Below are positions 19,629-45,195 of a DNA stretch of 64,000 bases, in pieces. Source of the stretch: Paraflavitalea soli (GTDB lineage Bacteria > Bacteroidota > Bacteroidia > Chitinophagales > Chitinophagaceae). Position 1 is the stretch's first letter, and each line of letters starts with the position of its first letter. A model generated the notes under the pieces. It saw only the letters and a program-made list of their open reading frames with translations, was not told the origin of the DNA and did no database searches. Location: positions 500,546 through 564,545 of the forward strand of contig NZ_CP032157.1 of assembly GCF_003555545.1 (NCBI RefSeq). Reading direction: 5' to 3'. Made by a program: the position numbers and the translations under genes.

Positions 19629-19659
19629 AGCCTTTCAGCGATTGCTGAAGGGCTTTTTT
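19629..19659 (+). terminator. Strong hairpin terminator without an obvious gene
   Basis: An 11-bp stem AGCCTTTCAGC/GCTGAAGGGCT (one G-U) with loop GATT is followed by TTTTTT. It stands ten bases before the histidine-kinase start, with no intact rightward gene upstream. It may be the surviving terminator of a lost tRNA or protein gene, or act as an attenuator for the kinase. Confidence 0.7.
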
Positions 19660-19669
19660 GTTTGGGGTA

Positions 19670-30300: not shown

Positions 30301-30591
30301 GTAATAAGCGGTTTGTTCATAGCGCCACCAGTTGGCGCCATGCTGTTCATCCTCCCGCCGGATATCGCCAGCCCAGAGGACGGTGTTGTAGGGATAGGAC
30401 ATGACTTCCGGATGTCCTGTCAGGCCTGTTCTTTGCCTTTGCAGGAACTCTTGTAGCCAGCCTCGTGGTGAAACCGCATTGATCGCCGTTTCTGTAAAGC
30501 GGCCTGCATTTTTTGCGGTACGGGATCCCTGTTGTGCTGTTGCCTGCAGGCAATGCAGTGACAGGATGAAAAACAATAGCCTGTTCATCAC
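27376..30591 (-). CDS. GH127-type beta-L-arabinofuranosidase with C-terminal lectin-like domains
   Basis: 1071 residues with a signal peptide (to about residue 19, ATAQ). Residues ~35-600 match the GH127 (DUF1680) (alpha/alpha)6 enzyme. It has the four zinc/catalytic positions known from HypBA1: E295 and C297 in HETCDITDY, and C378-C379 in HETECCAGN. The first Cys of the CC pair is the nucleophile in the family. Two beta-sandwich regions follow (about 660-850 and 860-1050), the last with WADYEVSLDL and FHNLKVRLLDTRYEIYYDN, resembling 3-keto-disaccharide hydrolase/LamG-like folds. The family removes beta-L-arabinofuranose from plant glycans and glycoproteins. It starts 23 bases after the FecR stop and overlaps the next gene by four bases. 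Confidence 0.88.
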   Translation of the reverse strand: MMNRLLFFILSLHCLQATAQQGSRTAKNAGRFTETAINAVSPRGWLQEFLQRQRTGLTGHPEVMSYPYNTVLWAGDIRREDEQHGANWWRYEQTAYYSDGLLRLGYLLNDDKMIRKARAGIAYTLSHVQPNGRLGPTTFTSQWPVAVYFRVLQAEYLVTGNEKIIDALHKHYLSYTPEELGNFKRNIVNIEGALWTYHQTGDPALLELAEKAWALGGFELNKQRILGNDKDSLHGVTYMEMAKLPVILYACSGKKEYLDLALRAMQKLHRDHLLPDGVPSSNEFLAGKDPLQSHETCDITDYTWTLGYFLMTTGDASWADRIERAVFNAGPGAVSKDFKNLQYFSSVNQVIATGNSNHNRFAHGSTWMAYWPCHETECCAGNVHRFMPNYAARMWMKDNRGGIVAALYGPSTYRYNTNCTVTESTDYPFGEEISFVFNMRSSEKINFSFRIPGWCANPALTINNKTYTGPLTPGPFVTLTRNFTNGDKITVHLPMKAALQHWQENGAFVEAGPLLFTYPVPEKVTIDKAAYPNLGNKRSTDPAFPALDIQPAGNWNYALNTVQKDLRLIKKKTKGYPFDPSFVPMKIQVQAHMLGTWKLEEGRYTPPLPAAGAPASSVKDTTLTLVPYGSTRLRLTVFPILQQQQPSTDTAIVWQKENFGANAGGTFTYTGNTMRITTQNTRHGFFQSDAYSFAWKEQPFPYDDCSRLTVTVKVDSVSAGSAGIMMRANKELGAANVHLETSATGDVYLFYRRRDNEPTAYVHMATCSFPVELKLLRQGDFYTAYYKNTKGDWVKGATAMAETGASMLTGLYACSGTLVNEYTRSSFRDWTFHYQENYTPAEQSYTDAMPVKPGTILRDNFNDGSLSNLPETPTNPVWKGIRFAQLPYGKKPERYWRKTGDGQFSFGNKKWADYEVSLDLAFDSASMATSDFTIRLRNQEIAIYNNMARYYAVTLRGGNKLAFEKYGAGGQLFYRNVQLPNYFNGRFHNLKVRLLDTRYEIYYDNKLIIEGNDTLSPLTFGNVSIKFTDAAMKIDNLEVLKIDDPINGEADNFLQDYYNVPLPAYLKKYGL

Positions 30592-30614: not shown

Positions 30615-31769
30615 TTACTTTAAATAAATAGTGCCTTTTTCGTCGATGCGTGACTGTATGCCTGAGGAAATAGCAATATTAGTCAGGAAAACCTGTATGG
30701 GTTTGTGCTTATTAATTGCGCCGGAGAAAGTCTGGTTCAGGGTGGCCTGGTCTTCTATCACTACTTTCACATCATACCAACGGGCTATGATGGCGCTGAT
30801 ATCACTGAGCTTTGTGTTGTTAAAATAGCTGATGCCCTGCATCCAGGACAGTACATTCGTTGCCTCAAAAGGGCTTGTGGAAAAAGCAGTGTTGGAGTAT
30901 ATGGCCTGGCGGCCAGGCATTAATTTCAGGGAATCGCTGCCTGCGGTAGTCAGCACAGAACCTTCCACCAGGGACGTAATGGTCTTGTTGGTTTCATAGG
31001 TATTGATGTTGAAGGAGGTGCCCAACACCTTTACATCGGTTTTACCGGCATGTACAATAAAAGGCCTGGCCGCATTTTTAGCTACTTCAAAATATCCTTC
31101 GCCTTCGAGGTACACTTCGCGGGTGTTGCCATAAAAAGCATAGGGGAACCGCAGTGAGGAGGATGCATTTAGCCAAACCTTGCTGCCATCGGGCAATAAT
31201 AACTGGTAGTCCAGTTTTGCGGGTACCTGTAAACTGGCCCAGCGGATATCCTTGTCGTTGCCGGTGGCATAGGAGAGCTGTTTATTGCCCAATGAGAGTT
31301 TGATGCCTTTTGCATTCACTTTTTTGCCAGTTTCCGACAGGTTTACGACTGATCCATCTGCCAGTTTTAGTTCGGGCGACTTTGATGCGGGCGACAGGGA
31401 AGGTATAGCGGCAGCCTGCTGCCCGGGTTGTTTGTTGGTGGAGCGGGATGAAAGATAAAATATGCCAGCGATGCTGATACATAATACTACGGCTGCGGCC
31501 TGTAATAGCCTTAGCCGGATAAGGCGGGCGTTACCGCCTTTTCGTGGCTGCAACCTTGCTTTCACCTTTTTCCAGTCCTCGTCTTCGTTTATCTGTGCAA
31601 GAAAGGTATTATGGGGAGGATCAAATTCGTTTTGTATTTCCTGCCACAGGGCTGCTATTTCGCTGTCATTCCTGATCGCATCATCCACCAGTTCGTTATC
31701 TGCCTCACTGATCGTTCCCCCTATCTTCTCGAATAATAAATGCCTGATATGTTCTCTGTTTATCTCCAT
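30615..31769 (-). CDS. FecR-type anti-sigma factor
   Basis: 384 residues from ATG 31769. The upstream in-frame ATG at 31787 is rejected because it would lie at the expected transcription start of the promoter motif at 31792-31818. A cytosolic anti-sigma region (about 1-85) is followed by one TM helix (LLQAAAVVLCISIAGIFYL, about 85-105), then the periplasmic FecR domain (YQLLLPDGSKVWLNASSSLRFP, VYLEGEGYFEVAKN, FIVHAGKTDVKVLGTSFNI). A DUF4974/STN-like C-terminus (FNNTKLSDISAIIARWYDVKV) completes it. It should hold the neighbouring ECF sigma until the SusC-type receptor's STN domain signals substrate binding. It is encoded directly after sigma, 52 bases apart, but with its own candidate promoter. 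Confidence 0.93.
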   Translation of the reverse strand: MEINREHIRHLLFEKIGGTISEADNELVDDAIRNDSEIAALWQEIQNEFDPPHNTFLAQINEDEDWKKVKARLQPRKGGNARLIRLRLLQAAAVVLCISIAGIFYLSSRSTNKQPGQQAAAIPSLSPASKSPELKLADGSVVNLSETGKKVNAKGIKLSLGNKQLSYATGNDKDIRWASLQVPAKLDYQLLLPDGSKVWLNASSSLRFPYAFYGNTREVYLEGEGYFEVAKNAARPFIVHAGKTDVKVLGTSFNINTYETNKTITSLVEGSVLTTAGSDSLKLMPGRQAIYSNTAFSTSPFEATNVLSWMQGISYFNNTKLSDISAIIARWYDVKVVIEDQATLNQTFSGAINKHKPIQVFLTNIAISSGIQSRIDEKGTIYLK

Positions 31770-31791
31770 TGGTGTGACTTCTATCAAATAA

Positions 31792-31818
31792 GACAGTTTT
31801 TGGTACGAGTTGGGTGAA
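31792..31818 (-). promoter_or_regulatory. Candidate ECF-sigma promoter before FecR (TTCACCC-N15-CTGTC)
   Basis: On the minus strand TTCACCC (31818-31812) and CTGTC (31796-31792) are 15 bases apart, followed by TTA. The motif sits between the sigma stop (31821) and the FecR ATG (31769), leaving 22 bases before the start. The same two blocks with the same spacing precede GH29 and SusC. Confidence 0.6.
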
Positions 31819-31820
31819 TA

Positions 31821-32357
31821 TTACAGGTCACGCAATTTCTCCCGCAGCGTTTTTAATGAAAGTTTGAGGTGTGTTTTTACCGAATTGATTGTAATGCCCA
31901 TTTCTTCTGCAGCTTCCTGGTATTTCTTATCCTCGAGGTATACCAGGCTAACCGCTTTTAAACGTTGCGCCGGCAGTTCGTTGAGCAGGGTATTTACTTT
32001 GCGGGAGGTTTCGTTGATCTCCAGGACATTGTCGTTGATCTTGTCCTGTAGCGTACGGGCGTAGGCGTTAAACCTGTTTGCTTTGGTCTTTTTCTTTTCA
32101 ATGAGGTTGAGACACTTATTGTGAATGGCCTTGTGGAGATATGATTTTACTGATGTGTTCAGGTTTTTGTACAGCTTTTTGTCCCACATTTCAATAAAGA
32201 GTAACTGCACCTGGTCCTGGGCCTCCATTTCTTCTTTGAGCAGGAAGTAGGCTTCGGCCACCAGGGGCTTGTAATAGATCCTGAACAATTGTTCAAAGGC
32301 TTCTATATCGCCTTTCCTGAGTTGTTCCAGGAAAAGTGTGTCGGCGTCTTTAATCAT
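31821..32357 (-). CDS. ECF RNA polymerase sigma factor (Bacteroides expansion family 1)
   Basis: 178 residues from ATG 32357 (MIKDADTLFLEQLRKGD). Region 2 (about 10-80) includes FEQLFRIYYKPLVAEAY and the QDQVQLLFIEMWDKK segment that contacts core RNA polymerase and the minus-10 DNA. Region 4 (about 115-175) ends with a clear helix-turn-helix, EAAEEMGITINSVKTHLKLSLKTLRE. This pairing with FecR and a SusC carrying an STN domain is the standard trans-envelope switch for glycan uptake loci. Here sigma is not beside SusC but 12 kb downstream, 47 bases after the FAD oxidoreductase. It is therefore probably transcribed with that unit, giving positive feedback. Confidence 0.93.
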   Translation of the reverse strand: MIKDADTLFLEQLRKGDIEAFEQLFRIYYKPLVAEAYFLLKEEMEAQDQVQLLFIEMWDKKLYKNLNTSVKSYLHKAIHNKCLNLIEKKKTKANRFNAYARTLQDKINDNVLEINETSRKVNTLLNELPAQRLKAVSLVYLEDKKYQEAAEEMGITINSVKTHLKLSLKTLREKLRDL

Positions 32358-32404
32358 GAGAAAAATGGTCAAGCATCGTTTAAAAATAGGCTGTCTAAAT
32401 ATAG

Positions 32405-34393
32405 CTAATTATTCTTCCTGAAAAGCACAGCGTCGCCCGTAATCTCTCCGCTTGCATACAGGGTGCTGATCTCCACAGTATTATTACTCCCCCTGGTTAA
32501 ATTAAAATGACCGAGCAGGTGCCATTCGCCACTTGTCTGTCCTACCACCTGGATATTGGCCCGCTGTACGGTTACCTGTTTTGTTTCCCGCCCATCCGAT
32601 ACGGTCCATTGCATGGTTTCGGCTGCATTTTTTCTGCCTGGCATGGTGTACACATATACGGCATAGTTGCCCGGAGTGGTAATGACCGGCCTGAAAGTCA
32701 TCGTTGATTTTTTACCGGTTTCCGCTACGGTCACAAAGTAATCCGGACCATAACCATCGTTCTTTTGCTTTTGCCAGTCACCGGTCATGGATACGGAAGC
32801 GGTATCGGCATTGTCTACTACAATATCCGGTGTGCTGCCATTGACCAGCGGATCTTTGTTAATGAGCTGTCGCAGTTCGTTGATATTGACCTCATGCAAT
32901 GGGGTCTTATGGTTGATGGCCATCACGGCTGCTGTGGCGGCTGATTGGGCCAGCACCATAAACACGGGTTCCATCCTGATAGACCCGTAAGCGATGTGGC
33001 TGGCGGATAAACAAACCGGTACGAGCAGGTTGGTACATTCTGTTGACCTGGGCAGTATGGCCCTGTAGGAAACGGGGTAGGGGCCAAATCCACCTACCTG
33101 TACGTCGCCTTCATTCTTCACCATACCACTGTCTACTATGCGTTGACAGTTGTGGGAATCCATGGTGTAGGCGGCCATGCCAATGCCATCATGTACGATG
33201 GCTTTACCCTGACAATTAGCCTGCGTCATTACATATTCGCCTACCATCCTGCGGGCTTCCCGCACATACATTTGTGGCGACCAGTTGCCATTGTCAGGAT
33301 ATTCATCTGTCGGATATCCCCATTGCAGCATTTCTTTACGCAAGGGGGCGGGCATCCGCTCATCGTGGCCCACGAAATAGAGCAGGCCTTTAATATAATC
33401 CTCGTGGCGTTTTACAATGATCTTGCGTTGCTGGTAGTCAGCATCGGGGTAGTCATAGTTCATGCCGATCATATCGGTGGAGAAACCGCCGTTGTTGTTG
33501 ATATCTGTTTTGTTGTTGGGCATTTTATCCATCTTCAGGATAGCGTTCAGGTTCGGGGCGGGTTTCTTTTCCAGCAACCGCAGCAGCAATTCATACCGGG
33601 AGGAATCATAACCGCCAGGACGTGTGATCTCTATCCGGTTTGCGGGGTTGTTGGTAAGACAAATGCGGAAGTTGTAAGCCTGTACTTTTTTATCGGCACT
33701 GCCGCGCCCGGCCAGGGGGGCGGGGCTGATGCCCCACAAAAGGCCACTGGCTGGCTGGCCGGGCGTTTTATATGGATCAACACCTTCCGGAAACTGGTGC
33801 TTGTTCAACAACTGCACGCCGTTCCAGTTCTCCTTATATTGGCTGTTGGCTTCCCGGCCTACAGTGTAGGAAATGCCGGCTTTGGCCATCAGGTCACCTT
33901 CATAGGTGCAATCGATGAACATCTTTGCGTTGATAGTAATGGTGGTCTTACCGGAAATGACGGTTATCGAGTTGATCAACCGGTTTGTTTTGAGTACGCT
34001 GGTCAACTGGTGCTGCAGCAGTACTTTGATCTTTGCTTCGCGGATGTATTGCAGGAAAATATCTTTTGCTACATGGGGCTCAAATGTCCAGGATTCCAGG
34101 CGGCCATAGTGTGTGCCCATGCGCCGGTAAAAGTCGAGGGCGAGCCCCGAGACTACGTATTTGTTGCCGATATCTGTCATGCCGAGCCCTCCGGAGGAAA
34201 GACCACCTATATGGTTGCCCGGCTCTATGAGCACTACCGATTTGCCCATCATCTTCGCCGTATAAGCGGCAATGACGCCCGCAGAAGTGGCGCCATACAC
34301 ACAAATGTCATACTCATCAGCAGCGTAAGTTCGCGTAGTGAGTGCAGTGGTAAAAATAGTCAGTATGATCAATGATTTCTTTAACCGGCGCAT
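32405..34393 (-). CDS. Secreted FAD-dependent oxidoreductase (PF12831) with golvesin-like C-terminal domain
   Basis: 662 residues from ATG 34393, which gives a signal peptide (MRRLKKSLIILTIFTTALTT); the longer frame overlaps the upstream gene and is rejected. The dinucleotide-binding start is DICVYGATSAGVIAAYTAKMM (G34) with an acidic strand end VVLIEPG, followed by the family's GGLSSGGLG and FIDCTYEGDL motifs. Residues ~540-662 are a separate beta-sandwich (GNYAVYVYTMPGRKN, EWHLLGHFNLTRG), like golvesin C-terminal/carbohydrate-binding domains. PF12831 enzymes recur in plant-glycan loci and are suspected to oxidise sugars; substrate is unproven. It follows the SGNH esterase gene by one base, so coupling is likely, and precedes the sigma gene. 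Confidence 0.85.
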   Translation of the reverse strand: MRRLKKSLIILTIFTTALTTRTYAADEYDICVYGATSAGVIAAYTAKMMGKSVVLIEPGNHIGGLSSGGLGMTDIGNKYVVSGLALDFYRRMGTHYGRLESWTFEPHVAKDIFLQYIREAKIKVLLQHQLTSVLKTNRLINSITVISGKTTITINAKMFIDCTYEGDLMAKAGISYTVGREANSQYKENWNGVQLLNKHQFPEGVDPYKTPGQPASGLLWGISPAPLAGRGSADKKVQAYNFRICLTNNPANRIEITRPGGYDSSRYELLLRLLEKKPAPNLNAILKMDKMPNNKTDINNNGGFSTDMIGMNYDYPDADYQQRKIIVKRHEDYIKGLLYFVGHDERMPAPLRKEMLQWGYPTDEYPDNGNWSPQMYVREARRMVGEYVMTQANCQGKAIVHDGIGMAAYTMDSHNCQRIVDSGMVKNEGDVQVGGFGPYPVSYRAILPRSTECTNLLVPVCLSASHIAYGSIRMEPVFMVLAQSAATAAVMAINHKTPLHEVNINELRQLINKDPLVNGSTPDIVVDNADTASVSMTGDWQKQKNDGYGPDYFVTVAETGKKSTMTFRPVITTPGNYAVYVYTMPGRKNAAETMQWTVSDGRETKQVTVQRANIQVVGQTSGEWHLLGHFNLTRGSNNTVEISTLYASGEITGDAVLFRKNN

Positions 34394-34394
34394 G

Positions 34395-35666
34395 CTAATT
34401 TTTTGAAAGGGTTCCCAATAATAATATCCAGCCTGCATAGCAGGCGTTCTGCTCATATTTTTTCAGATCGCCGATCACGCCATCTCCCTTTTTAAGGATC
34501 TCCATTTTGTCCAGCTTTTTATCAGACACTTTAAAGACGATCTGGTGCTCCTTGCTTTCCAGCATGGGAAGAAAGAAGGCATTAGCCCGTACATAAGTGG
34601 CATATCTATCGAAGCGGGGAAATAATTTCTCCGGCCCGTTGTCGATCTTCACGGCATATTGTCCGCAATCGGGCCCGATGATATCCGACATACCCACCAA
34701 CCTGCCATTGAAGCGGATGGTAAGGGATGCGCCCGGTTCATTTGACTTTAGCAATACGGGGTACTTCACGCGATAAGTTCTGGCAACAGTGTCACCTGTT
34801 TTTGCCAGGTCGGTCCAGTTGCCGCTCATGAGCAGTTCGTTTACCGGGATCATCTGCGCTTCTTCCCAATTGTCTATGGTATAGGGATCTTTAAGAGCGT
34901 GTTGCATGGCTCCGCTCTTGTTCATCATGATCTTCATGGACCTGGCTATGGCTTCGGTGTACAGGCGATGGCCGGTGTGGGTATTAGGGTGCACATTGTC
35001 TCCGGTAAATACCAGTTTGCCGGGATAGTCTTCCGGCTTGCCATTGAAGACCAGCTTGCCTTCTTCCATCAGTTTCAGTACGTCCAGTCCTAATTGTATG
35101 GAAGGGATGGAATAGTGTTGAGCGATATGTTCCATAGCCAGCATGGAACCAAACAAACGACCCTGCCTCAAGGTGTCCAGCATATTGCCGGCAATGGTGT
35201 ATACAAAACAGATATCTGTATAGGGATCATTCTTCCAGATCTGGCGTACAATGCCTTCCATCGCCTGATGTGAGGTGCGGCCGCTGCCATCATTTACGGC
35301 AAACTCCACAAAAACGAGATGCGGCCTGAATTGCAACACATCTCTTTGCAAGCGAAACACGCCAAGATCGGAGCCGGTGCCACCAACGCCTGCAATGATC
35401 TGTGATATCTTAGCCGCGGGGTATTGTTGTTTGAACCATTGCATGGATTGATCGCGCCAGCCGCCATTGGCTGCTGTGATGCTGCCACCGAGGTACCCAA
35501 TGCGTACGGAATCACCCTGCTTCAAACGTGCAAAGAAATTAGGCAGGCCCGCTCTCAAGCGACACTCCTGCAGGTAATCAAGGGTATCGCGCTGCGCCTG
35601 CAGTGAAAAGAAAAGGACCAATGAAAACAAAGTGGCCAACAGGGTGAATTTTGCTTTGTAGCTCAT
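34395..35666 (-). CDS. Secreted SGNH/GDSL-type esterase
   Basis: 423 residues from ATG 35666 (MSYKAKFTLLATLFSLVLFF signal); the open frame extends 49 codons further into the fucosidase gene and is not used. SGNH blocks: I in IGYLGGSITAANGG (catalytic Ser in GGS), II with Gly in GVGGTGSDLG, III with Asn in FVEFAVNDG, V as DNVHPNTHTGH (D-x-x-H). The C-terminal ~130 residues are a beta-sandwich that probably binds carbohydrate. Likely removes acetyl or other ester groups from the target glycan in the periplasm or at the surface. It lies between GH29 (8 bases upstream) and the FAD oxidoreductase (1 base downstream). Confidence 0.85.
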   Translation of the reverse strand: MSYKAKFTLLATLFSLVLFFSLQAQRDTLDYLQECRLRAGLPNFFARLKQGDSVRIGYLGGSITAANGGWRDQSMQWFKQQYPAAKISQIIAGVGGTGSDLGVFRLQRDVLQFRPHLVFVEFAVNDGSGRTSHQAMEGIVRQIWKNDPYTDICFVYTIAGNMLDTLRQGRLFGSMLAMEHIAQHYSIPSIQLGLDVLKLMEEGKLVFNGKPEDYPGKLVFTGDNVHPNTHTGHRLYTEAIARSMKIMMNKSGAMQHALKDPYTIDNWEEAQMIPVNELLMSGNWTDLAKTGDTVARTYRVKYPVLLKSNEPGASLTIRFNGRLVGMSDIIGPDCGQYAVKIDNGPEKLFPRFDRYATYVRANAFFLPMLESKEHQIVFKVSDKKLDKMEILKKGDGVIGDLKKYEQNACYAGWILLLGTLSKN

Positions 35667-35674
35667 GGGCTGGG

Positions 35675-37111
35675 TTATTTGGTTTTCTTTGGTACTTCTA
35701 TTTTGAATACCCAGGCAGGCTGGCCTGCCAGTTGCTGGCGTAAGGTTTGAGGGATGATGAGTGCTGTGCCCTCGTCGTTTTGGCTCAGGGATAAGGGTTT
35801 GGTGGTCCCACAAATACTAACGGCACTGCCTGCGGGCAAAGCGAAGGAGGGGAGCACAATACGGGCTGGCAATGTATTTTCATTTTCTTCGGGCAGGTAA
35901 AATGCAAACAGGGACTGTTGGTTTTGGGTGAAGGCCCATTTGCCGGCGCGGTAAGGGGAAAGGGGTTTGGTGTCGAAGATGGCCTGTCCGTTGTTTTTCA
36001 TCCAGGCTGCTATTTCATTCAATCGCTGGTAAGCTTCTTCGTGCCATTCTCCATCGGGGCCGGGACCAATGTTTAACAGCAGGTTGCCGTTTTTAGCCAC
36101 AATGTCTATGAGCGTCTGGATCAGTTGCCGGGCGCTTTTGTAATGTTCGTTGACCTTGTAAGACCAGGATTCTCCCATGGTCATGCAGGTTTCCCAGGGA
36201 ACTGGTATAAAATGGTCCGGTACTTTTTGTTCGGGTGTGAGGTAGTTGGTCAGTTGGGGATTGCCGTGCCGTTCTACAATGATGAGGCCGGGCTGGTGTT
36301 GCCGTGCCTTGTTGGCAATGGGCATCATGTTCATTTTTACCCAATCTCCATCGAACCATAGCAGGTCTACCTTGCCATAAGCGGTGGTCAGTTCGTTGAG
36401 CTGGTTGGCCGTGAAGTCGTAAAACCTTTTCCAGCGTTCGGGATGTTTGAGGGTATCGTAATTGGGGTTCCTGTCTTTTGGTGGAAAGTAGCGCCACCAG
36501 AAATCATCGGAGTGCCAGTCGGGTTTTGAATAATAAGCGCCTACCATAAAGTTGGCTGTGCGGAATGCGTCGAAAATCTCTTTGGTGAGGTTGCTGCGTG
36601 GATTGGCGGCAAAGGCGCCCGATGGGTTGGTGATCCGGTAGTCGGTGTACTTTGTATCGAACATACAAAATCCATCGTGGTGTTTGGTGGTGAACACCAT
36701 ATATTTCATGCCGGCAGCTTTGGCAGCAGCTGCCCATTTTTTGGGGGTGAAACGGGTGGGGTTGAAGGTTTGTCCCAGGCGTTCGTATGCCTGGGTGTAG
36801 GCAAAGTAATTGGCCGAATCGGGGCCGGTCCTTTGCGTGAAGTTGTTCTTTGTATGGCTATAATCTTCCGGGCTCAGGGTCCAGGATTCCACAATGCCGC
36901 GCTGGCTGTATGGGCCCCAGTGCAGGAAGAGGCCAAACTTCAGGTTTTGCCATTGCGTCAGTTTGGCCCTCACTAATGTATCGGTGGGGTACTGGTAGGC
37001 TGTTTCATCCTTATGTTCCTGGGAATACAAGGATGAGTTTGTCAATAGCAAAGTAGTTGACAGCAGGGCATGGAGCGCCACATATTTTAACTTGGCAAGT
37101 ACAGGCATCAT
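35675..37111 (-). CDS. GH29 alpha-L-fucosidase
   Basis: 478 residues with a signal peptide (to about residue 30, SLYSQ). The GH29 barrel is clear: KFGLFLHWGPYS near residue 58-70, WAAAAKAAGMKYMVFTTKHHDGFCMF (active-site HH), YYSKPDWHS, and VDLLWFDGDW, in which D254 is the expected nucleophile. LLLNIGPGPDG marks the barrel end, and a small beta-sandwich closes the protein. It removes terminal alpha-L-fucose with retention. A start of transcription just upstream is likely, because a TTCACCC-N15-CTGTC motif ends 13 bases before the ATG. It heads a tight unit with the SGNH esterase and FAD oxidoreductase. Confidence 0.94.
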   Translation of the reverse strand: MMPVLAKLKYVALHALLSTTLLLTNSSLYSQEHKDETAYQYPTDTLVRAKLTQWQNLKFGLFLHWGPYSQRGIVESWTLSPEDYSHTKNNFTQRTGPDSANYFAYTQAYERLGQTFNPTRFTPKKWAAAAKAAGMKYMVFTTKHHDGFCMFDTKYTDYRITNPSGAFAANPRSNLTKEIFDAFRTANFMVGAYYSKPDWHSDDFWWRYFPPKDRNPNYDTLKHPERWKRFYDFTANQLNELTTAYGKVDLLWFDGDWVKMNMMPIANKARQHQPGLIIVERHGNPQLTNYLTPEQKVPDHFIPVPWETCMTMGESWSYKVNEHYKSARQLIQTLIDIVAKNGNLLLNIGPGPDGEWHEEAYQRLNEIAAWMKNNGQAIFDTKPLSPYRAGKWAFTQNQQSLFAFYLPEENENTLPARIVLPSFALPAGSAVSICGTTKPLSLSQNDEGTALIIPQTLRQQLAGQPAWVFKIEVPKKTK

Positions 37112-37123
37112 CAGTCTACTTAT

Positions 37124-37150
37124 GACAGGTTTATGGGGAAAACGGGTGAA
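37124..37150 (-). promoter_or_regulatory. Candidate ECF-sigma promoter before GH29 (TTCACCC-N15-CTGTC)
   Basis: Minus strand: TTCACCC (37150-37144), 15 bases beginning GTTTTCCCC, then CTGTC (37128-37124) and ATA. It fills the gap between the esterase stop (37164) and the fucosidase ATG (37111). Its spacer also shares TTTTCCC with the SusC copy. Confidence 0.6.
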
Positions 37151-37163
37151 AGCTGTTGCTTTT

Positions 37164-38453
37164 TTACTTTTTCATTTGCTCTACCAGCCAGTCTATTGCC
37201 TTTGTGGCTTGCTCTGGATAGTTCCAGTGCCCGGTTTCGGGAACGGACAGTAGTTGTTTGGGAGCCGTGATCGCATTGTAGGCAGCATACATGGAAGTAG
37301 GGGGGCAGGTTTCATCATTAAAGCCCCAGGAATAAAAGCCGGGTACCTTCAGCCGTTTTGCAAAGTTTACCACGTCATAGTAGGCGCTGGTGGCAATCTT
37401 ATCTTTCTTGTTGTTGAAAGAAAGGTTTTCGGGTGCAAATAAATGAGGCCAGCCACCTGCGCGGCCATGCAGGTAACCAGTCAGGTCGCAGAGGGCGGGG
37501 AAGAAGCTGAACAGGTATTTGACGCGATGGTCCAGTGCTGCGGTGATGATGGACAATGCTCCGCCCTGACTCACGCCGCACACGCCCAGTTTATTGCCAT
37601 CGAAGCCGGGCAGGCTGTAGATAAAATCAATAGCACGCACACAACCGAGGTACACCCTCTTGTAATAATACTGGTCGCGGTCATCGAGGTTGTACATCCA
37701 GTAATTGCTGATGGCGCCGGTGATCAGGTCATAATATACCGACATGTCCATGTTGACCGGAATGCCGTGGATGCCGATCTCGAAGGTAATAAACCCTTTG
37801 GCGGCCAGTGCGGTATCGCCGTAATAAGGACGGGCACCTGCGCTCGGTACTTTTAGTATCGCAGGATATTTCCCTTCTTTTTTGGGTATACACAACATGC
37901 CATACAACCGGGTGCGGTAGGAGTAGTGCGCTATGCTTACATGGTATACATTCACCGTTTCTGTGCAACGCTCCGGCATCAGCGTCAGCTTTGCATCCAA
38001 TGGCCTTTTGGCATTGGCAGCGATGGCCTGGTTCCAGAACTGGTCAAAATCCTTTGGCTCTTCCGCTACTGGTTTCAGGTTACCGATATCCATGCCGGCA
38101 GTAGCGAGGTTGGTGTATTCCTGGTTATCGTATTTCAGCTTTACGGTGCAGCGCATAAAGCCGGGGGCGGTCATTGCGGGTGCTTGTATGGTCTTGCTGC
38201 CGGTAGCCAATACTTCCCTGGCGGAATCAAGGGCCGGCATTCTTTCGGGGCCAACCCACCAGCTCACTTCCACATGCTGAAGCGGTACATTGCTTTTTAA
38301 AACTGTAATAGTGAAGCGGGGCTTTTCGCCGGCCTTGTATTGCCAGTCGGCATGATCGGGGGTGATGAGTATTTTAATTAATTTCTCCGCCGGCTGTGCA
38401 TAAGTGAAAACACTGTACAGTACGAATATCAGGGAAAGTGCTTTTTTAAACAT
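37164..38453 (-). CDS. CE7-like acetyl (xylan) esterase, AXE1 family
   Basis: 429 residues, signal peptide MFKKALSLIFVLYSVFTYAQ. An N-terminal beta-sandwich (about 25-125) precedes an alpha/beta-hydrolase of the AXE1/cinnamoyl-ester group. The nucleophile elbow is CGVSQGGALS (S295), with a possible acid in WGFNDETCPP (Asp) and the histidine in ETGHWNY near the C-terminus. RMPALDSAREV and LYGMLCIPKKEGKYPAIL are typical surface strands. It probably deacetylates the target polysaccharide before the glycosidases act. It follows the DUF5017 lipoprotein by 19 bases in the SusC-led unit. Confidence 0.85.
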   Translation of the reverse strand: MFKKALSLIFVLYSVFTYAQPAEKLIKILITPDHADWQYKAGEKPRFTITVLKSNVPLQHVEVSWWVGPERMPALDSAREVLATGSKTIQAPAMTAPGFMRCTVKLKYDNQEYTNLATAGMDIGNLKPVAEEPKDFDQFWNQAIAANAKRPLDAKLTLMPERCTETVNVYHVSIAHYSYRTRLYGMLCIPKKEGKYPAILKVPSAGARPYYGDTALAAKGFITFEIGIHGIPVNMDMSVYYDLITGAISNYWMYNLDDRDQYYYKRVYLGCVRAIDFIYSLPGFDGNKLGVCGVSQGGALSIITAALDHRVKYLFSFFPALCDLTGYLHGRAGGWPHLFAPENLSFNNKKDKIATSAYYDVVNFAKRLKVPGFYSWGFNDETCPPTSMYAAYNAITAPKQLLSVPETGHWNYPEQATKAIDWLVEQMKK

Positions 38454-38472
38454 ATCATCTTTGTTGTGCCTG

Positions 38473-39450
38473 TTAGGGTGTTACGGTGAGGGTTACGGTC
38501 CTTATTACCTGGCTGGTGCCGTTTGTCCTGGAGTTGGTGGCCACAAAGGTGGCGGTATAGGTGCCGGGTGTTTTGTAGATGAAGCGGAAACTGGCCATTT
38601 GTCCCTGTACACCTGTTTTGATCACCTGGCTTGGTGCATCTCCTTTAACGGTCCTTAAATTAACAGCCGACGTGAGCAGCCAGTCTTCATTGCCTTCGCC
38701 GGTGGAATCAAGGCCGGGATTAAAGGTGATGGGATAGGCAGTACGGATGGGTATGCCGGCGCTGTTGTTGATGCTATTGGAAGCGGATACATTCCATTCG
38801 CCTACGTCCCAGGCCTCCGCGGCATTTTTTACGCTGGTTTGCGCCCAACCGATGTTGGCGAAGTTGGAGAACAGGGGTGTATAGGTGCCGTCACTCAACT
38901 TGTTGCCCAGCGTCAGGTTTTGCACCTGGAACTTTCTTTGCATGGCGGTATCTGTTCTTTTCGTGATAACGCGGAAGGCAATGTTGACCTTTTCGGCATC
39001 GCTGAAGTCGGTGATGTCAATGGAATCGGAAGTAACAAATGTATTGGACAAGGCTGTAGGCCATTTTTGGTTGCGGGTAGTGATATTTGTCCAGTTGGCG
39101 GCGGCAATGCCTGCTGCGTCATAATTTACCAGGTTGGTAGAGATCAGCAGGTCGATCGTATCGTCGCTGACCAATTTGCCCTGGTTCATATTGGTCTGAA
39201 ATACGAGCTTGTTCACGCCTTTTTCTGAAATACGGTCCTTTTTATTATATACCTTGCCAAACTCACCGGAGTAGAAGGTGATGATATCGGCATCGCCGGT
39301 GAAGTCGAACTGAATGGTATCGTTTACTTTGTAATTGCCTGCTTTGACAGATACGGTAAAATCATCAGGGTTTTCGGCCACATCATCCTTATCGCAGGCA
39401 GCAGCCAGCGTTATTATAGCGAAGAGACATATCGTGCTTAATGAGCGCAT
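38473..39450 (-). CDS. DUF5017 surface lipoprotein of the SusCD unit
   Basis: 325 residues from ATG 39450 (MRSLSTICLFAIITLAAAC), a lipoprotein signal with lipobox AAAC; the upstream in-frame ATG would overlap the SusD stop. Mature acidic residues after the Cys (DKDDVAENPDDF) favour surface export. Next comes DUF5017-like beta-rich sequence with IQFDFTGDADIITFYSGEFG, the hallmark of this family, and a C-terminal PKD/Ig-like segment (FIYKTPGTYTATFVATN). DUF5017 proteins sit next to SusD in many Bacteroidota loci and are thought to be surface glycan-binding proteins, like SusE/F. The position directly after SusD fits. Confidence 0.85.
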   Translation of the reverse strand: MRSLSTICLFAIITLAAACDKDDVAENPDDFTVSVKAGNYKVNDTIQFDFTGDADIITFYSGEFGKVYNKKDRISEKGVNKLVFQTNMNQGKLVSDDTIDLLISTNLVNYDAAGIAAANWTNITTRNQKWPTALSNTFVTSDSIDITDFSDAEKVNIAFRVITKRTDTAMQRKFQVQNLTLGNKLSDGTYTPLFSNFANIGWAQTSVKNAAEAWDVGEWNVSASNSINNSAGIPIRTAYPITFNPGLDSTGEGNEDWLLTSAVNLRTVKGDAPSQVIKTGVQGQMASFRFIYKTPGTYTATFVATNSRTNGTSQVIRTVTLTVTP

Positions 39451-39479
39451 AGGAGCTTTTTTAATTGTTTGCAACAGCA

Positions 39480-41369
39480 TTACCATCCATTGTTTTGGGT
39501 GAGGGCTTTGTCTAGCGCCATCTCCGAAGATGGGATGGGGAACAGGACGTATTTATCTGGCGCGGTCAGGAAGTTATTAGCCGCCATGTTGGCTGCTGTG
39601 AGGTAGGCGGTCGGCGCTCTGTTCGTGTTGTCATCGAACACAGTTTGCATAGCAGTGGTCATGATGCCCCAGCGGATGAGGTCATTGCGCCGCTGCCCCT
39701 CGAAGCATAATTCCCTGGATCGTTCATCCACGATATCCTGGAAGGTGAATGTGCTTACGTCGACAGGCGATGCAGTTAACGGATCGTATCCAAAAGCCCT
39801 TCTTTTTACCTGGTTAAAATAGCCAACGGCTTTTGCTGAAGGAGCGCCATTTACTTTGAGGTCAGCTTCGGCAGCCATCAGCAATACATCAGCATAACGC
39901 AGGATGGGGAAATTGCAACTGGTATAGTTCTGCTGGCGAACGGGTGGTGGGTTGATCTCATATTCCCTTCTCCATTTACCGATGCCCCTGTCGTATATGG
40001 TGGCGTAGCCTAAGCCGGGTTTGGTAACCGTGATGGCCGTGATCTTGCCGCCAGAGATGGTGGCTGTCGCTGTTGCTTTATTAGCGGTTACTGTAACTGC
40101 CTGTGGTGGAATAGCAGGCAATGCTACTGCACTGTTCTTATAAGTGTTGAAAGTAATAGCAGGTTCGCTGGTGTAGCCAGTACCCGGATTGTCTATTTCT
40201 ATGGAAATAATAGAACCGTCCTGGGCGGTTTTGGCGGTTGCCTTTGCGCCTGTGCCACCCCCACCGGTAAACACTACTTCGAGGTAAGGATATTTGGTGG
40301 TGGTGATGTTTTTGTAAGAATAAGGTGCAATGTTCCAGTCGCGGCGAAGATCGCCGGGTGCATAAAGGTCAAACAATTTAGGGTAGGGTCTGTAGGCTGC
40401 AGATGAATAACCGGCCACGGAGGTGGCAGAGGCATCCGGGTTGTATACGCCCATCAGGTTGCCCAGTTGTTGAAGAACAAGATAGCCGGTACCGGAATAG
40501 GAACCGGAAGTATTCGACTTCGACAGGAAGGCTGCGTCCCAGATCCCTTCTTTGGTGTTCCGGTCTTTCATATTGTTCTCCATGTTGTTGATGAAAGTCC
40601 TTGAATAATCGGGATTAAGACTGTGTACATTGGATTGGATGAGCTTTTGTGACCATGCCAGTGCCTGGGCAAACTTGTCGTTTTGCAACAGCGGATAGCC
40701 GGCCATTTTCAAACATACTCTTGCCAGCATTGCCTGTACGGCGCCCTGGGTTACATAGGTAGTGGATTGTACTTCGGCCATGGTGGGCACCAGTGGCTCT
40801 GCTTTGGTCATTTCCGTGATGATGAAGTCGTATATCTTTTTGGAGTCATCACGGGGCAGGTTGAAGTTGGTGCCTATCTCCGTAGCGAGCTGTGTTTTTA
40901 AAGGCACGTCTCCGAAATAATTTACCAGCAGGTAAAAGTAGTAAGCTCTTAAAAAGGTGGCTTGCCCAATCACCTGTTCCCGTTTTCGCTCTGGCATGTC
41001 GGGTACATCCGCCACATCGAGTATGATATTGGCATCTTCTATGCCCTTGTACAGTTGCCGCCAGAAGTTCCAATAGACGGATTCGCCTGCGGATGCATTG
41101 TATAGTTCCGGGAATAAAGTAGATGTAGTAGCATTACTGCGCCAGCTTTCATCAGCGCCAGCTGTAAGATAGCCCCATAACCCCTGTGCATAAAGCTGGT
41201 CCTGTGTCAGGAGATTATAGGCGCCTGCCAGTTGCTCATCCAATTGATCTGCTGTGGTGAAGGTAATGGGCTGAAAGGTAGGTGGGGCGAGGCTCACATC
41301 TTTCAAACAGGAGGTAAAAAGGCTACTGGTGAAGGCGAAAATGACCAGGTGTTTCCGGATTGGTATCAT
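39480..41369 (-). CDS. SusD/RagB family glycan-binding outer-membrane lipoprotein
   Basis: 629 residues. The N-terminal signal ends SLFTSC (lipobox, Cys about 20). SusD features follow: YNLLTQDQLYAQG, QLYKGIEDANIILD, QATFLRAYYFYLLVNYFGDVPL near 125-150 (TPR-like helices) and a C-terminal RQNYTSCNFPILRYADVLLMAAEA plus ELCFEGQRRNDLIRWG, the most conserved SusD block. An unusual insertion of ~90 residues (about 370-470) contains two Gly/Thr-rich beta stretches (PGTGYTSEPAITF and KPGLGYATIYDRG) not found in short members. It caps the SusC channel and presents oligosaccharides. The gene starts 23 bases after SusC. Confidence 0.94.
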   Translation of the reverse strand: MIPIRKHLVIFAFTSSLFTSCLKDVSLAPPTFQPITFTTADQLDEQLAGAYNLLTQDQLYAQGLWGYLTAGADESWRSNATTSTLFPELYNASAGESVYWNFWRQLYKGIEDANIILDVADVPDMPERKREQVIGQATFLRAYYFYLLVNYFGDVPLKTQLATEIGTNFNLPRDDSKKIYDFIITEMTKAEPLVPTMAEVQSTTYVTQGAVQAMLARVCLKMAGYPLLQNDKFAQALAWSQKLIQSNVHSLNPDYSRTFINNMENNMKDRNTKEGIWDAAFLSKSNTSGSYSGTGYLVLQQLGNLMGVYNPDASATSVAGYSSAAYRPYPKLFDLYAPGDLRRDWNIAPYSYKNITTTKYPYLEVVFTGGGGTGAKATAKTAQDGSIISIEIDNPGTGYTSEPAITFNTYKNSAVALPAIPPQAVTVTANKATATATISGGKITAITVTKPGLGYATIYDRGIGKWRREYEINPPPVRQQNYTSCNFPILRYADVLLMAAEADLKVNGAPSAKAVGYFNQVKRRAFGYDPLTASPVDVSTFTFQDIVDERSRELCFEGQRRNDLIRWGIMTTAMQTVFDDNTNRAPTAYLTAANMAANNFLTAPDKYVLFPIPSSEMALDKALTQNNGW

Positions 41370-41392
41370 ATAACAATCGGTTTTAGTAAGAA

Positions 41393-44300
41393 TTAAAAAA
41401 TGGCGCGTAAGCCGAAACTGAAAACGAGAGAACGGGGATAAGCGGTGTAATCCAATCCACCGGACAATGCGGTGTAACTGCTGCTCGGCTGAATGAAAGT
41501 ATAACCCGTACCGCCTGAAACAGTGCTGCCGCCAGACAGAAAAGGTGCGTTGGAGGCATTTTGTACGCGGAAGGTGGATACTTCCGGATCGATGCCGGAG
41601 TATTTCGTCCAGGTATAGAGGTTTTGTGCAGATACATTGAGCTGCAGGCCGCTGAGGCCTGCTTTTTTTACCATTTTGGACGGCATATTATAAGTGAGGG
41701 CTACTGTTTTCAAGCGCAGAAAAGAAGCGTCTTCAACCAACCGGGAAGACACCCGCGGTAAGCCCTGACCGGGGTCGCCACGCAAATTGTAATAAGCCCT
41801 TGCATAATCGTTGGTAGGATTGTCGGGTGTCCAACGATTGGCGTATTCGGCAAATTGATTGCCATTGGTGAAATAGCCGCCGGTGCTGGCAAATACCATG
41901 CGATTGGCATTGAGGACATCATTGCCATAGCTCCACTGGAAAAAAATATTCAGGGAGAAATTCTTGTAATCAAAGTTGTTGGAGAAACCGCCGGTGTGGA
42001 TCGGTAAAGGGCTTCCGAGTATGGTCTGGTCGCCACTATTACCAACCGTATTGCTGTTGCCGGATATAATGCCATCTCCATTCAGGTCTTTGTATTTAGG
42101 ATCGCCGGGTTGAGCGCTCACTGTACCTGCATAATTGGGTATGCCGGGTTTCAACACGTATTTTCCATTGGCCTGCCGGTCGAAATCTGAATATTGGTAC
42201 ACGCCATCCCATATAAAACCATAGAACCTCGATATGGGTCCTCCCTTCTCTGCGATCCAGGCGGTGGCTTGATTACCACCCGGCAGGTTCAGCAGTGTTT
42301 CCATTACATCATAGCCGCTGTAAAAATCAACGATCTTGCCCCTGTTGAAGCTGATATTGAAGCTGCTTCTCCAGGCAAAGGTCTTTGTTTTGAAATTCGT
42401 TGAATTGATGGTAAGCTCAAAGCCTTTATTGCTCACTACGCCGGTGTTCTGGTATTGCAGGTTGAAAGAAGTGCCGCTATAGCCGGCAAGGTAAGGCAGG
42501 TTGATCTGCAACAGGAAGTCTTTGGTGCGTTTGCTGTAATAATCCGCCTCAATGGTAATGCGGTCGTCCAGGAAGCCGAGGTTCAATCCTACATCCAGTT
42601 GTGTAGAGGTTTCCCAACGCAGGTTGGCATTGCCATTGAAGAAAGGTACTACACCACGGATGTACTGGTTGTTGAACGGATAGCCAAACTGAGTGCCGCC
42701 TGCAATATTGGCCATATAGCTGAAGTCGCCCACGCGGTTGTTGCCCACATTTCCATAGCTGACACGCAATTTCCCATCAGATAGTATCTTGCTGAAGCCA
42801 CTCATAAAGCTTTCTTCCGAGAAGCGCCAGGCCACGGCGCCGGAAGGGAAATACCCCCACTGTTTGCCGGGAGCAAATTTGGAAGACCCATCTGCCCTTG
42901 CCGTCGCAGTAAGCAAATAGCGGTCTTTGTAGATATAGTTTAACCTTGTCAGGAAAGAATACAATTGCCACCGGGTACCACCGCTATAAGGATTGGAAGC
43001 AGTGCCTCCGCCAATGCTTTTGATGCCCAGGTATTCTGTTGATTGAGGAATGTTGTTGGTGCGGAATCCTGTACCGGTGTTCTCTGCATATTGATAGGTG
43101 AAGCCTGCCAGTGCATTGATCCTGTGGTGGTCGCCTATTTTACCGCGGTAGGATAAAATGTTTTCACTTAAATAATTGCTGTTGAGCTGTGAGTTGATAC
43201 TGCCATTGATCCCGTTGGGATTGGCCACGGCACCATTCAGGTTCTTGAAGGTATTCCCCTGCTGTGTCCTGGAGTTGTAGAAACTTTCCGACAATACGGT
43301 GGTGGTATTGTATCCCCCTGATATTTTCAGGGTGAAGTTCTTCAGGAAAGTATATTCCAGCGAAGCATTCAGGGTGCCGGTGCCATTGGTGTTTTTCCTG
43401 AATTCGTTCTGTGCCTGCATCAGGGGATTGATCAGGTTGTTGCCGAGGCTGGAAGTGGTTCCCTCGTTGAAATCCTCGAAGGCAAGGCTATCTATCAAAG
43501 AGTTGAGCAGGTCCTGGTTGCCCAATCCGGATACGGGCCGGTACTGCCACATGCCCTGCACCACGCCTCCACTAAAACCTGCGGCAGGAACAGTGCCATA
43601 GGCCACTGTACGGCTATAGCCGGCAGAGAGTGCGAAACGGAGGTTCTTTCTCAGCCGTTGATCGAGGGTGAACTTCCCTTCGTACCGTTTAAGCCCGGTA
43701 TTGATGATCACACCATCCTGGTTGAAGAAAGAACCGCTGAGTGAGTATTTCGTATCTGCATTGCCACCCGTCATATTGATGGAGTGGCTTTGCTGAATAC
43801 CGGTGCGCAGCAACAGATCCTGCCAATCGTAGCCTTGTACGGCTTTATAGTAATCCAGTCCGTAGGGGCGGCCTCCTTTGGAGGAGTCGTAAGCACCGAG
43901 GTAAATATCATGATAGGTATTGACCGGGTTGGCGGGTGTGCTACGGATGCTGTCGAGTTCCAATTGCAGTCTTACGAACTCATAAGGATTCATCATTTTG
44001 ATGGTCTTCACAGGCTGTTGCAGCCCATAGGAAAAATTATAGGTTACCCGGGGGGGACCGCTGGCGCCTCTTTTAGTGGTGATGAGGATGACACCATTGG
44101 CGCCCCTGGCGCCATAGATAGCTATTGAAGAGGCATCTTTCAATACTTCGAAGGATGCGATATCGTTTGGATTAATGGAGTTGATGTCCATGTTCTCAAT
44201 AGGAAAGCCATCTATAACGAAGAGGGGAGAGGCATCCTGGGTAACAGAAGCGCCCCTGATATTGATCTGGGCGGCGGCGCCGGGCTGTCCATCCCTGGGT

Positions 44301-45037
44301 ATAACCGTTACACCGGCAATACGGCCAGCTAATGCCTGGTCGAAAGCAGGTACGGGGGCTTTGGCCATGTCTTCCACATTCGCTTTACCTACAGCGCCTG
44401 TAAGGTCTTTACGGGTGGAAGTCCCATAGCCGATGATCACCACTTCATCAAGGCCGCTGTTCTTACGGACCAGTCGTACGTTGAGTGAAGTGCTACCATT
44501 CACTGTTAGTTCCTGGGTGGCATAGCCTACAAAGCTTACTGTGATCTTTTTGTTGCCGCCTTGCGCAAGCATGCTGAACTTGCCGTCGGGGCCTGTGACC
44601 ACGGCCAGTGAAGTCCCTTTTAATTGCACTGTAGCCCCGGCAATGGCGGCGCCATTTTCATCGGCCACCCTGCCTGTAATGTTTTCAGGGTTTACTGCGG
44701 CCGGTGCGTTGAGGGCGTTTTGCAGACTTTCCTTTTTTTTAAGAATGATAAACTGGTCATTAATGGTCCAGTCGATGTCCTTTCCTTTCAGCAGGGTGGT
44801 CATCACAGCAGGCAGCTCAACGTCATTGAAAGATACGCTGACCTTCTCTTTATCATTGATAAGGCTGTTGTTGTAAAAGACCGTAAAGCCTGTTTGCTGC
44901 TTGATGGACTTGAAAACATCTGCGAGGCTGATATGCTGCTGCACAATGGTCACCTTGCGGGTTTGTGCATGCACAGCAGTGAGGGAGAACAGGACGGCTA
45001 ATAAAGTCAGGCCAATCCATTTTCTGTATGGCATCAT
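41393..45037 (-). CDS. SusC/RagA TonB-dependent receptor with signalling (STN) domain
   Basis: 1214 residues. Signal peptide to about residue 25 (AVHAQ). An STN domain (about 28-105, HISLADVFKSIKQQTGFTVFY) enables transfer of a substrate signal to FecR. The carboxypeptidase-D-like domain follows (ITGRVADENGAAIAGATVQLKGT), then a TonB-box-like stretch, the plug (VIIGYGTSTRKDLTGAV, the SusC signature; FEVLKDASSIAIYGARGANGVILITTK) and a 22-strand barrel ending in aromatic Phe. It imports oligosaccharides with SusD using TonB energy. It is first gene of the locus, with a candidate ECF promoter 30 bases before the ATG. Confidence 0.96.
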   Translation of the reverse strand: MMPYRKWIGLTLLAVLFSLTAVHAQTRKVTIVQQHISLADVFKSIKQQTGFTVFYNNSLINDKEKVSVSFNDVELPAVMTTLLKGKDIDWTINDQFIILKKKESLQNALNAPAAVNPENITGRVADENGAAIAGATVQLKGTSLAVVTGPDGKFSMLAQGGNKKITVSFVGYATQELTVNGSTSLNVRLVRKNSGLDEVVIIGYGTSTRKDLTGAVGKANVEDMAKAPVPAFDQALAGRIAGVTVIPRDGQPGAAAQINIRGASVTQDASPLFVIDGFPIENMDINSINPNDIASFEVLKDASSIAIYGARGANGVILITTKRGASGPPRVTYNFSYGLQQPVKTIKMMNPYEFVRLQLELDSIRSTPANPVNTYHDIYLGAYDSSKGGRPYGLDYYKAVQGYDWQDLLLRTGIQQSHSINMTGGNADTKYSLSGSFFNQDGVIINTGLKRYEGKFTLDQRLRKNLRFALSAGYSRTVAYGTVPAAGFSGGVVQGMWQYRPVSGLGNQDLLNSLIDSLAFEDFNEGTTSSLGNNLINPLMQAQNEFRKNTNGTGTLNASLEYTFLKNFTLKISGGYNTTTVLSESFYNSRTQQGNTFKNLNGAVANPNGINGSINSQLNSNYLSENILSYRGKIGDHHRINALAGFTYQYAENTGTGFRTNNIPQSTEYLGIKSIGGGTASNPYSGGTRWQLYSFLTRLNYIYKDRYLLTATARADGSSKFAPGKQWGYFPSGAVAWRFSEESFMSGFSKILSDGKLRVSYGNVGNNRVGDFSYMANIAGGTQFGYPFNNQYIRGVVPFFNGNANLRWETSTQLDVGLNLGFLDDRITIEADYYSKRTKDFLLQINLPYLAGYSGTSFNLQYQNTGVVSNKGFELTINSTNFKTKTFAWRSSFNISFNRGKIVDFYSGYDVMETLLNLPGGNQATAWIAEKGGPISRFYGFIWDGVYQYSDFDRQANGKYVLKPGIPNYAGTVSAQPGDPKYKDLNGDGIISGNSNTVGNSGDQTILGSPLPIHTGGFSNNFDYKNFSLNIFFQWSYGNDVLNANRMVFASTGGYFTNGNQFAEYANRWTPDNPTNDYARAYYNLRGDPGQGLPRVSSRLVEDASFLRLKTVALTYNMPSKMVKKAGLSGLQLNVSAQNLYTWTKYSGIDPEVSTFRVQNASNAPFLSGGSTVSGGTGYTFIQPSSSYTALSGGLDYTAYPRSLVFSFGLRAIF

Positions 45038-45066
45038 GAGCGCTATCGTTTTGGGTCAATAGTTTA

Positions 45067-45093
45067 GACAGGGTTTTCGGGAAAATGGGTGAA
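45067..45093 (-). promoter_or_regulatory. Candidate ECF-sigma promoter before SusC (TTCACCC-N15-CTGTC)
   Basis: Minus strand: TTCACCC (45093-45087), 15-base spacer beginning ATTTTCCC, then CTGTC (45071-45067) followed by TAA. The CTGTC block ends 30 bases before the SusC ATG. No TAnnTTTG housekeeping box is visible in the same place. Confidence 0.62.
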
Positions 45094-45195
45094 GGAACGG
45101 TTTGATCATTATTTTACTTATGGGCCATTCCCCCGGTTTGGGGCTAATCCTGTCTTATAGGTTATCATTATTCCTTCATCTTAAAAACCTTTCCA

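Follow-up and report, generated by a model that had tools for sequence, protein, structure and literature searches.

A two-block motif as candidate promoter of a FecI-type sigma factor in a sugar-uptake locus of Paraflavitalea soli, and its recurrence in sigma/anti-sigma junctions of Bacteroidota

The Locus and Its Three Motif Copies

The window analyzed here is a stretch of 64,000 nucleotides from the genome of Paraflavitalea soli (assembly GCF_003555545.1, contig NZ_CP032157.1, positions 500,546 to 564,545), and coordinates given without further comment are positions within it. It contains a polysaccharide utilization locus (PUL), identified by a SusC/SusD pair together with carbohydrate-active enzymes, in which three copies of the motif TTCACCC-N15-CTGTC stand at gene starts. 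As judged from sequence comparison, these copies are very probably promoters read by the FecI-type extracytoplasmic function (ECF) sigma factor encoded beside them (31821-32357). The locus also holds the kit of cell-surface signaling, namely an ECF sigma factor with regions 2 and 4, an adjacent FecR-type regulator, and a TonB-dependent receptor bearing an STN domain.

The genes form three units on the minus strand, each headed by one motif copy on the same strand. The first copy (45067-45093) lies 29 nucleotides upstream of susC and heads unit 1, which comprises the SusC-type TonB-dependent receptor with its N-terminal STN signaling domain (41393-45037), SusD (39480-41369), a DUF5017 protein (38473-39486), and, as the last gene, an acetyl xylan esterase-like AXE1 protein (37164-38453). 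The second copy (37124-37150) lies 12 nucleotides upstream of the GH29 alpha-L-fucosidase gene (35675-37111) and heads unit 2, which continues with a GDSL esterase (34395-35813), an FAD-dependent oxidoreductase with a golvesin C-terminal domain (32405-34456), and fecI, whose ATG is at 32357 and whose product carries the helix ITINSVKTHLKL. Since fecI is the last gene of this unit, it could be transcribed from the GH29 copy. The third copy (31792-31818) occupies the fecI-fecR gap, 22 nucleotides upstream of fecR, and heads unit 3, made up of the FecR anti-sigma/sigma regulator with FecR and FecR_C domains (30615-31769), a GH127 beta-L-arabinofuranosidase-like protein (27376-30591), an RHGA/epimerase-type protein with a beta-helix and a TIM barrel (24251-27379), and a GFO/IDH/MocA oxidoreductase (22769-24229). 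The enzymes suggest a pectin-type glycan as the substrate. A terminator scan listed no minus-strand terminator-like site in the gaps between the units (AXE1, GH29, fecI, fecR), with 27 sites against 15.9 expected in 31500-45300, a result that neither sets the units apart nor establishes them.

An earlier note on this DNA had described three exact copies in short gaps at gene starts, with 15 bases between the blocks, and a pattern scan of the window returns exactly these three, all on the minus strand, the distances given above being counted from CTGTC to the ATG. Its finer observations hold as well. The third base downstream of CTGTC is A in all three copies, the spacers of the susC and GH29 copies share TTTTCCC, which the fecR spacer lacks, and no housekeeping TAnnTTTG box, even with one mismatch, occurs within 120 nucleotides upstream of the susC, GH29, and fecR starts. 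Upstream of fecI, two near-housekeeping boxes on the minus strand, TATATTTA (32403-32396) and TATTTTTA (32388-32381), each with one mismatch to TAnnTTTG, form a candidate basal promoter.

Occurrence of the Motif in the Genome

The exact motif was found in none of 100 dinucleotide-shuffled versions of the window. In the whole genome (8,443,189 bp), it has three exact matches, all of them the window copies, and the same pattern read backwards has none. When one mismatch is allowed, as the earlier note had proposed, 53 sites (3 exact and 50 others, or about one one-mismatch site per 170 kb) compare with 34 for the backwards control, so that one-mismatch copies lie near background. Dividing the one-mismatch count by the 36 possible single changes gives, as simple arithmetic, about one exact copy per genome by chance; three same-strand copies within 13.3 kb, all of them at gene starts, cannot be put down to chance.

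The 50 one-mismatch copies were accordingly set aside, except for one retained for its position. This copy, TTCCCCC-N15-CTGTCTTATAGG (45128-45154, plus strand), stands before a divergent pectate-lyase/RHGA-type gene (45196-47559, plus strand), a placement that is suggestive. It falls outside the top 12 sites of the window under the weight matrix described below, and a housekeeping box with one mismatch lies 81 nucleotides upstream of the lyase-type gene. It may be a weaker, divergent fourth site.

The Sigma/Anti-Sigma Junction in Related Loci

A scan of named genomes with an alignment of 17 sigma factors gave 79 loci, the best among the matches listed, of which 78 were counted after L136, whose frame was not resolved, was left out. 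The strict pattern TCACCY-N14-17-TGTC is present in the gap between sigma gene and fecR in 25 of these 78 foreign loci; near-copies (e.g., L110/L113 and L146/L152) were kept in this count and in the counts of 19 of 20 and 7 of 8 given below, so that not all members are independent. Shuffling the gaps for 500 rounds gave 0.01 matching loci on average and never more than 1, and neither the reverse complement nor the reversed pattern occurs in any of the 78 gaps. CACCY and TGTC stand 16 apart in 21 cases, 15 apart in 4, and 25 apart in 1, so that 25 of 26 have a distance of 15 or 16. Hosts of the loci labeled by −10 variant (see below) include Flavobacteriaceae, Sphingobacteriaceae, Chitinophagaceae, and Bacteroidales. 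The two closest relatives of the window sigma, in G227 and G006 (49 and 46 percent identity), have TTCACCC-N15-GGGTC. At E <= 1e-40 the window sigma has no match in the four other genomes of the genus, and peptide patterns found no close relatives of its FecR.

These sites have the form of ECF promoters, with two conserved blocks at a fixed spacing of about 15-17 nucleotides just upstream of target genes, and with a −10 block that has a GTC/TGTC-type core, unlike TAnnTTTG. A weight matrix was built solely from 20 foreign TGTC sites; omitting the window's own junction and 13 others (spacer not 15 or core not locatable) from 54 labeled junctions left 40, of which these are the TGTC members. The matrix places the three window copies first to third in the window, with scores of 15.7, 13.2, and 9.8 and the next site at 9.2. 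In a group of loci with TGTA as the −10 variant (L116, L117, L119, L122, L123, and L084), the fecR promoter has TAACCC as its −35 block, which takes in the TAA stop codon of the sigma gene; the copy before the susC-sized gene of these loci, where found, has TCACCC.

The P. soli genome itself has 39 FecR-type genes with a FecR_C domain, and a detected sigma gene adjoins 33 of them. The FecR_C model also matches five frames of 929-1217 amino acids (e.g., genome positions 8374017-8374214 and 955537-955743), four of them beside FecR genes; the matched segments are perhaps STN domains of SusC receptors.

The −10 Variants and Agreement Within Loci

From 140 junctions, 54 could be labeled by their −10 core as TGTC (27), TGTA (14), GGTC (6), or TGCC (7). 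In the 45 labeled loci of named genomes, any of the four variants was then sought upstream of genes outside the junction. Sixteen loci contain 20 such second copies, all on the strand of the sigma gene, and 12 of these precede a susC-sized frame (1091-1174 amino acids, assigned by size). The variant of the locus's own junction is carried by 19 of the 20, a number reached in none of 10,000 label permutations (mean 3.98); the lone disagreement stands before the sigma gene of L164. Under the same criteria, eight further genomes of the family gave eight copies outside the junction, seven of which agree with their own junction, including all six that precede susC-sized frames. In one of these genomes, G007, the susC-sized gene is on the opposite strand to the sigma gene. 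By this comparison, every sigma of the class seems to come with a promoter type of its own that can be read off the sigma/anti-sigma junction.

On the best sigma tree, which comes from a short search and has 18 weak branches among its 50 inner ones, the four variants need five changes. All 7 GGTC sigmas, with L073 included manually, have K at residue 84, and none of 48 others does. An N84K replacement as the cause of the change from TGTC to GGTC was considered and is kept as a hypothesis, as the pattern amounts to two changes on the tree, which leaves a sign test powerless; no residue-level claim is therefore made.

Two observations bear on the architecture of other loci. In Chitinophaga loci of the TGCC class, a copy also stands before the sigma gene itself (L146 at 9842, TGCC; L152 at 2226, TGCC; L164 at 9830, TGTC), so that true autoregulation may occur there. 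In P. soli, L066 is a second multi-promoter locus with a different motif, repeating the architecture of the window locus with a sequence of its own: GGTAC-N16-CGTCTTTT occurs before its fecR (around 8371-8410 of that locus) and before a second susC (upstream of 13254).

The −35 Class and the Region-4.2 Helix

For a comparison of promoter with helix, 163 of 200 sigmas were kept after removal of near-copies of at least 80% identity. The C-type promoter accompanies 48 of the 79 sigmas whose helix is NxxKT[HQV]. It is found once among the 41 with x[VI][KR]N, once among 31 others, and with none of the 10 VE or the 2 other VKT sigmas; for the NxxKT[HQV] set, shuffled controls gave a mean of 1.70 and a maximum of 7, and the reversed pattern gave 1. 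The G-type promoter, [AG]GT[AC]C-N15-18-[CTG]GTC, was found in 14 of 41 for x[VI][KR]N (27 lacking it), 0 of 79 for NxxKT[HQV], 1 of 31 for the others, 0 of 10 for VE, and 0 of 2 for other VKT (controls for the x[VI][KR]N set: shuffled mean 0.62, maximum 4; reversed 2). Within P. soli, four of six sigmas with a [KR]N helix have a G-type promoter.

The −35 class thus follows the region-4.2 helix of the sigma in these alignments, and because the sigmas were sampled by homology, this association is confounded with descent. Taken with the within-locus agreement of the −10 variants, it means that promoter and sigma covary across the sequences compared. The sites, their exclusivity, their conservation, the coupled −10 variation, and the helix/−35 association were all computed directly. 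A single residue behind the choice between TCACCC and TAACCC was also sought; the mutual-information columns were dominated by relatedness, and none is claimed.

Interpretation and Alternatives

The earlier note had read the motif as the −35/−10 promoter used by the ECF sigma that the locus itself encodes, and the recurrence of the junction site, the coupling of the −10 variants, and the helix/−35 association all argue for this assignment. The comparison also goes beyond the note, in that the copy before fecR appears as a feature common to the class, the −35 half as the property of the whole sigma class, and the −10 as the part that differs between loci. Where the promoter of a sigma commonly lies in the sigma/anti-sigma junction, as in this class, the junction displays the recognition sequence of each sigma.

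We infer direct recognition, the start sites, the signal, and the feedback logic along the following lines. TTCACCC would serve as the −35 element and CTGTC(NNA) as the −10 element, separated by a 15-nucleotide spacer. FecI at a low level would come from a weak promoter of the housekeeping type immediately before fecI. Glycan bound at the STN-bearing SusC would then signal through FecR to FecI, and FecI-RNA polymerase would fire at three points: at susC, yielding the importer and the esterase; at GH29, yielding hydrolases and, by read-through, fecI, as positive feedback; and at fecR, yielding the regulator and the downstream hydrolases, as negative or resetting feedback. The weaker divergent copy could bring in the lyase gene.

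Several results weigh against this assignment or against its generality. With just 12 nucleotides from CTGTC to the ATG, a transcript from the GH29 copy could have only a very short leader. In 721 kb of other P. soli loci, three sites (18.8, 18.4, and 16.0) outscore the best window copy (15.7) under the foreign-site matrix, so that the matrix alone is not specific. Within the class, 86 of the 140 junctions fall outside the labeling pattern and were dropped, 31 of the 79 NxxKT-helix sigmas lack a C-type promoter, and L056 of P. soli, with the helix NTVKTH, is a counterexample that has CATACC in place of TCACCC. Second copies are missing from the stretches examined, some of them short, in 29 of the 45 named loci, and from 23 of the 24 named loci of the TGTC class, L126 being the only one to have a copy. 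In the further family genomes, the disagreeing copy belongs to G004, of the same genus as P. soli, and precedes a 164-amino-acid frame, and G059 has no second copy by the same criteria; its sole other candidate, excluded as coding, is TGTC where its own junction has TGTA.

The sites could instead be promoters that another ECF sigma, or one shared between loci, recognizes. The number of sigma/FecR pairs in the genome leaves room for such an arrangement, and the junction of L044, a P. soli locus whose sigma has an NxxKT helix, contains TCACCC-N15-GCGAC, a site spotted by eye that fails the pattern, so that −35 recognition may overlap between sigmas. However, the −10 of L044 is GCGAC, the exact motif is confined to the window locus, and the −10 variants track the own sigma of each locus, which makes another sigma improbable.

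Alternatively, the two blocks could be operator half-sites for another regulator of the locus, such as an HTCS (hybrid two-component system) response regulator, with no promoter function. A possible second regulator does adjoin the end of the locus, in the form of an HTCS-like sensor with Reg_prop, Y_Y_Y, HisKA_3, and HATPase domains (19658-22741, plus strand), and the near-constant spacing would suit a bipartite operator as well. Yet the site lies in the fecI-fecR junction of relatives from several classes of the phylum, its −10 variant agrees among the copies of a locus, and its −35 class tracks the sigma's own helix. Moreover, the two blocks are dissimilar to one another, and the 120 nucleotides upstream of the starts hold no housekeeping box that an operator could activate; an operator is thus quite improbable. 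That the copies are functionless, whether as chance matches or as products of a recent duplication of a single upstream region, is highly improbable, for the TTTTCCC common to two spacers and the single exact match expected per genome are outweighed by spacers that otherwise differ, by three same-strand copies at gene starts within 13.3 kb, by the recurrence of the junction copy in many genera, and by the spacers of the foreign sites, in which T is likewise the most frequent base at several positions.

Recognition of the three copies by the adjacent FecI-type sigma therefore remains the preferred reading for the window. For the phylum, we lean, with limited confidence, toward a readable and nearly one-to-one promoter code of the FecI sigmas of Bacteroidota, in which the sigma's own promoter would lie in the junction, the −35 would be set by the region-4.2 helix (T[CA]ACCC for NxxKT, GTAC/GTCC for [KR]N), and the −10 variant, which separates sister loci, would be set in region 2, with positions 69 and 84 as candidates.

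Beyond the sensor, the window encodes a protein of 1139 amino acids with an nSTAND3 NTPase domain (14428-17847, minus strand); domains of the nSTAND3 type are known from anti-phage STAND proteins.

Comparison With Known Systems

A single Bacteroidota genome can encode dozens of FecI/FecR pairs, the 33 detected here being an example, and many such pairs lie in sugar-uptake loci. The DNA code of these FecI-type switches is probably readable straight from genomes. If so, sequence alone would suffice to predict the regulons of numerous sugar-locus sigmas that are still uncharacterized, and sigma-promoter pairs could be predicted and tested in bulk. The sigma/anti-sigma junction appears to be an overlooked place for finding these promoters; in the excerpts cited below, the usual reading, upstream of the sigma gene, was not applied to FecI-like groups. 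The junction yields a motif for the sigma class, and it would explain how one sigma fires several separated units of one locus.

The motif and the junction rule were not found in the literature searched, the 2021 ECF reclassification lying outside that search. That work, by Casas-Pastor et al., is reportedly the main reclassification of ECF sigmas, and the motif could be printed there. Literature matching TCACCC, sigma factor, and Bacteroid- included no title that names FecI/FecR sugar loci. The ECF promoter as a kind is known; the placement in the junction, a class that spans the phylum, and a −10 matched to its locus appear to be new as far as the literature searched extends.

The papers cited below by PMC identifier are represented by excerpts. 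In these, the promoters of FecI/FecR pairs are treated as unknown, or as unpredictable without transcription-start data. A start-site map of Bacteroides thetaiotaomicron from 2020 states that no motif was known for any of its ECF sigmas (PMC7366714), and a comparative reconstruction describes ECF promoter prediction in Bacteroides as challenging and in need of start-site data (PMC3878776). For SigW-1, a sigma acting on a sugar locus, a network study from 2025 reports a motif that falls short of significance; for the stress sigma SigH-1 it reports a MEME motif with P <.05 (PMC12596196). For PUL24, a 5′ end without a housekeeping box was suggested to be sigma-dependent (PMC11501099). The ECF-sigma/anti-sigma polysaccharide loci of B. 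thetaiotaomicron resemble the window locus in combining SusC/D, sigma, anti-sigma, and hydrolases.

Two published motifs of Bacteroidota offer further points of comparison. EcfO of Bacteroides fragilis is, like the window sigma, an ECF sigma of this phylum and has a published recognition motif, but it is an oxidative-stress sigma (both by mention in PMC7366714). The SM6 motif of Flavobacterium psychrophilum differs in belonging mainly to type IX secretion genes and to one sigma/anti-sigma pair, and the excerpted text of that paper does not name FecI or FecR (PMC9723704).

A further parallel is the ferric citrate system FecI-FecR-FecA of Escherichia coli, which likewise combines a FecI-type ECF sigma, a FecR regulator, a receptor with a signaling domain, and a sigma-dependent promoter before the receptor gene. 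There, FecI controls the single fecA promoter, and it is sigma-70 that transcribes fecIR, under the control of Fur (PMC9249621). In contrast, fecR and a hydrolase gene of the window locus also carry the site, and fecI is readable through from one of the copies. The autoregulated ECF groups are alike in that a two-block promoter was deduced from the sigma's own neighborhood, and a major study that mined promoters left out the FecI-like groups ECF05-10 for their lack of autoregulation (PMC3817407). The autoregulated groups have their promoter ahead of the sigma gene, whereas in the class represented by the window it would lie between sigma and anti-sigma.

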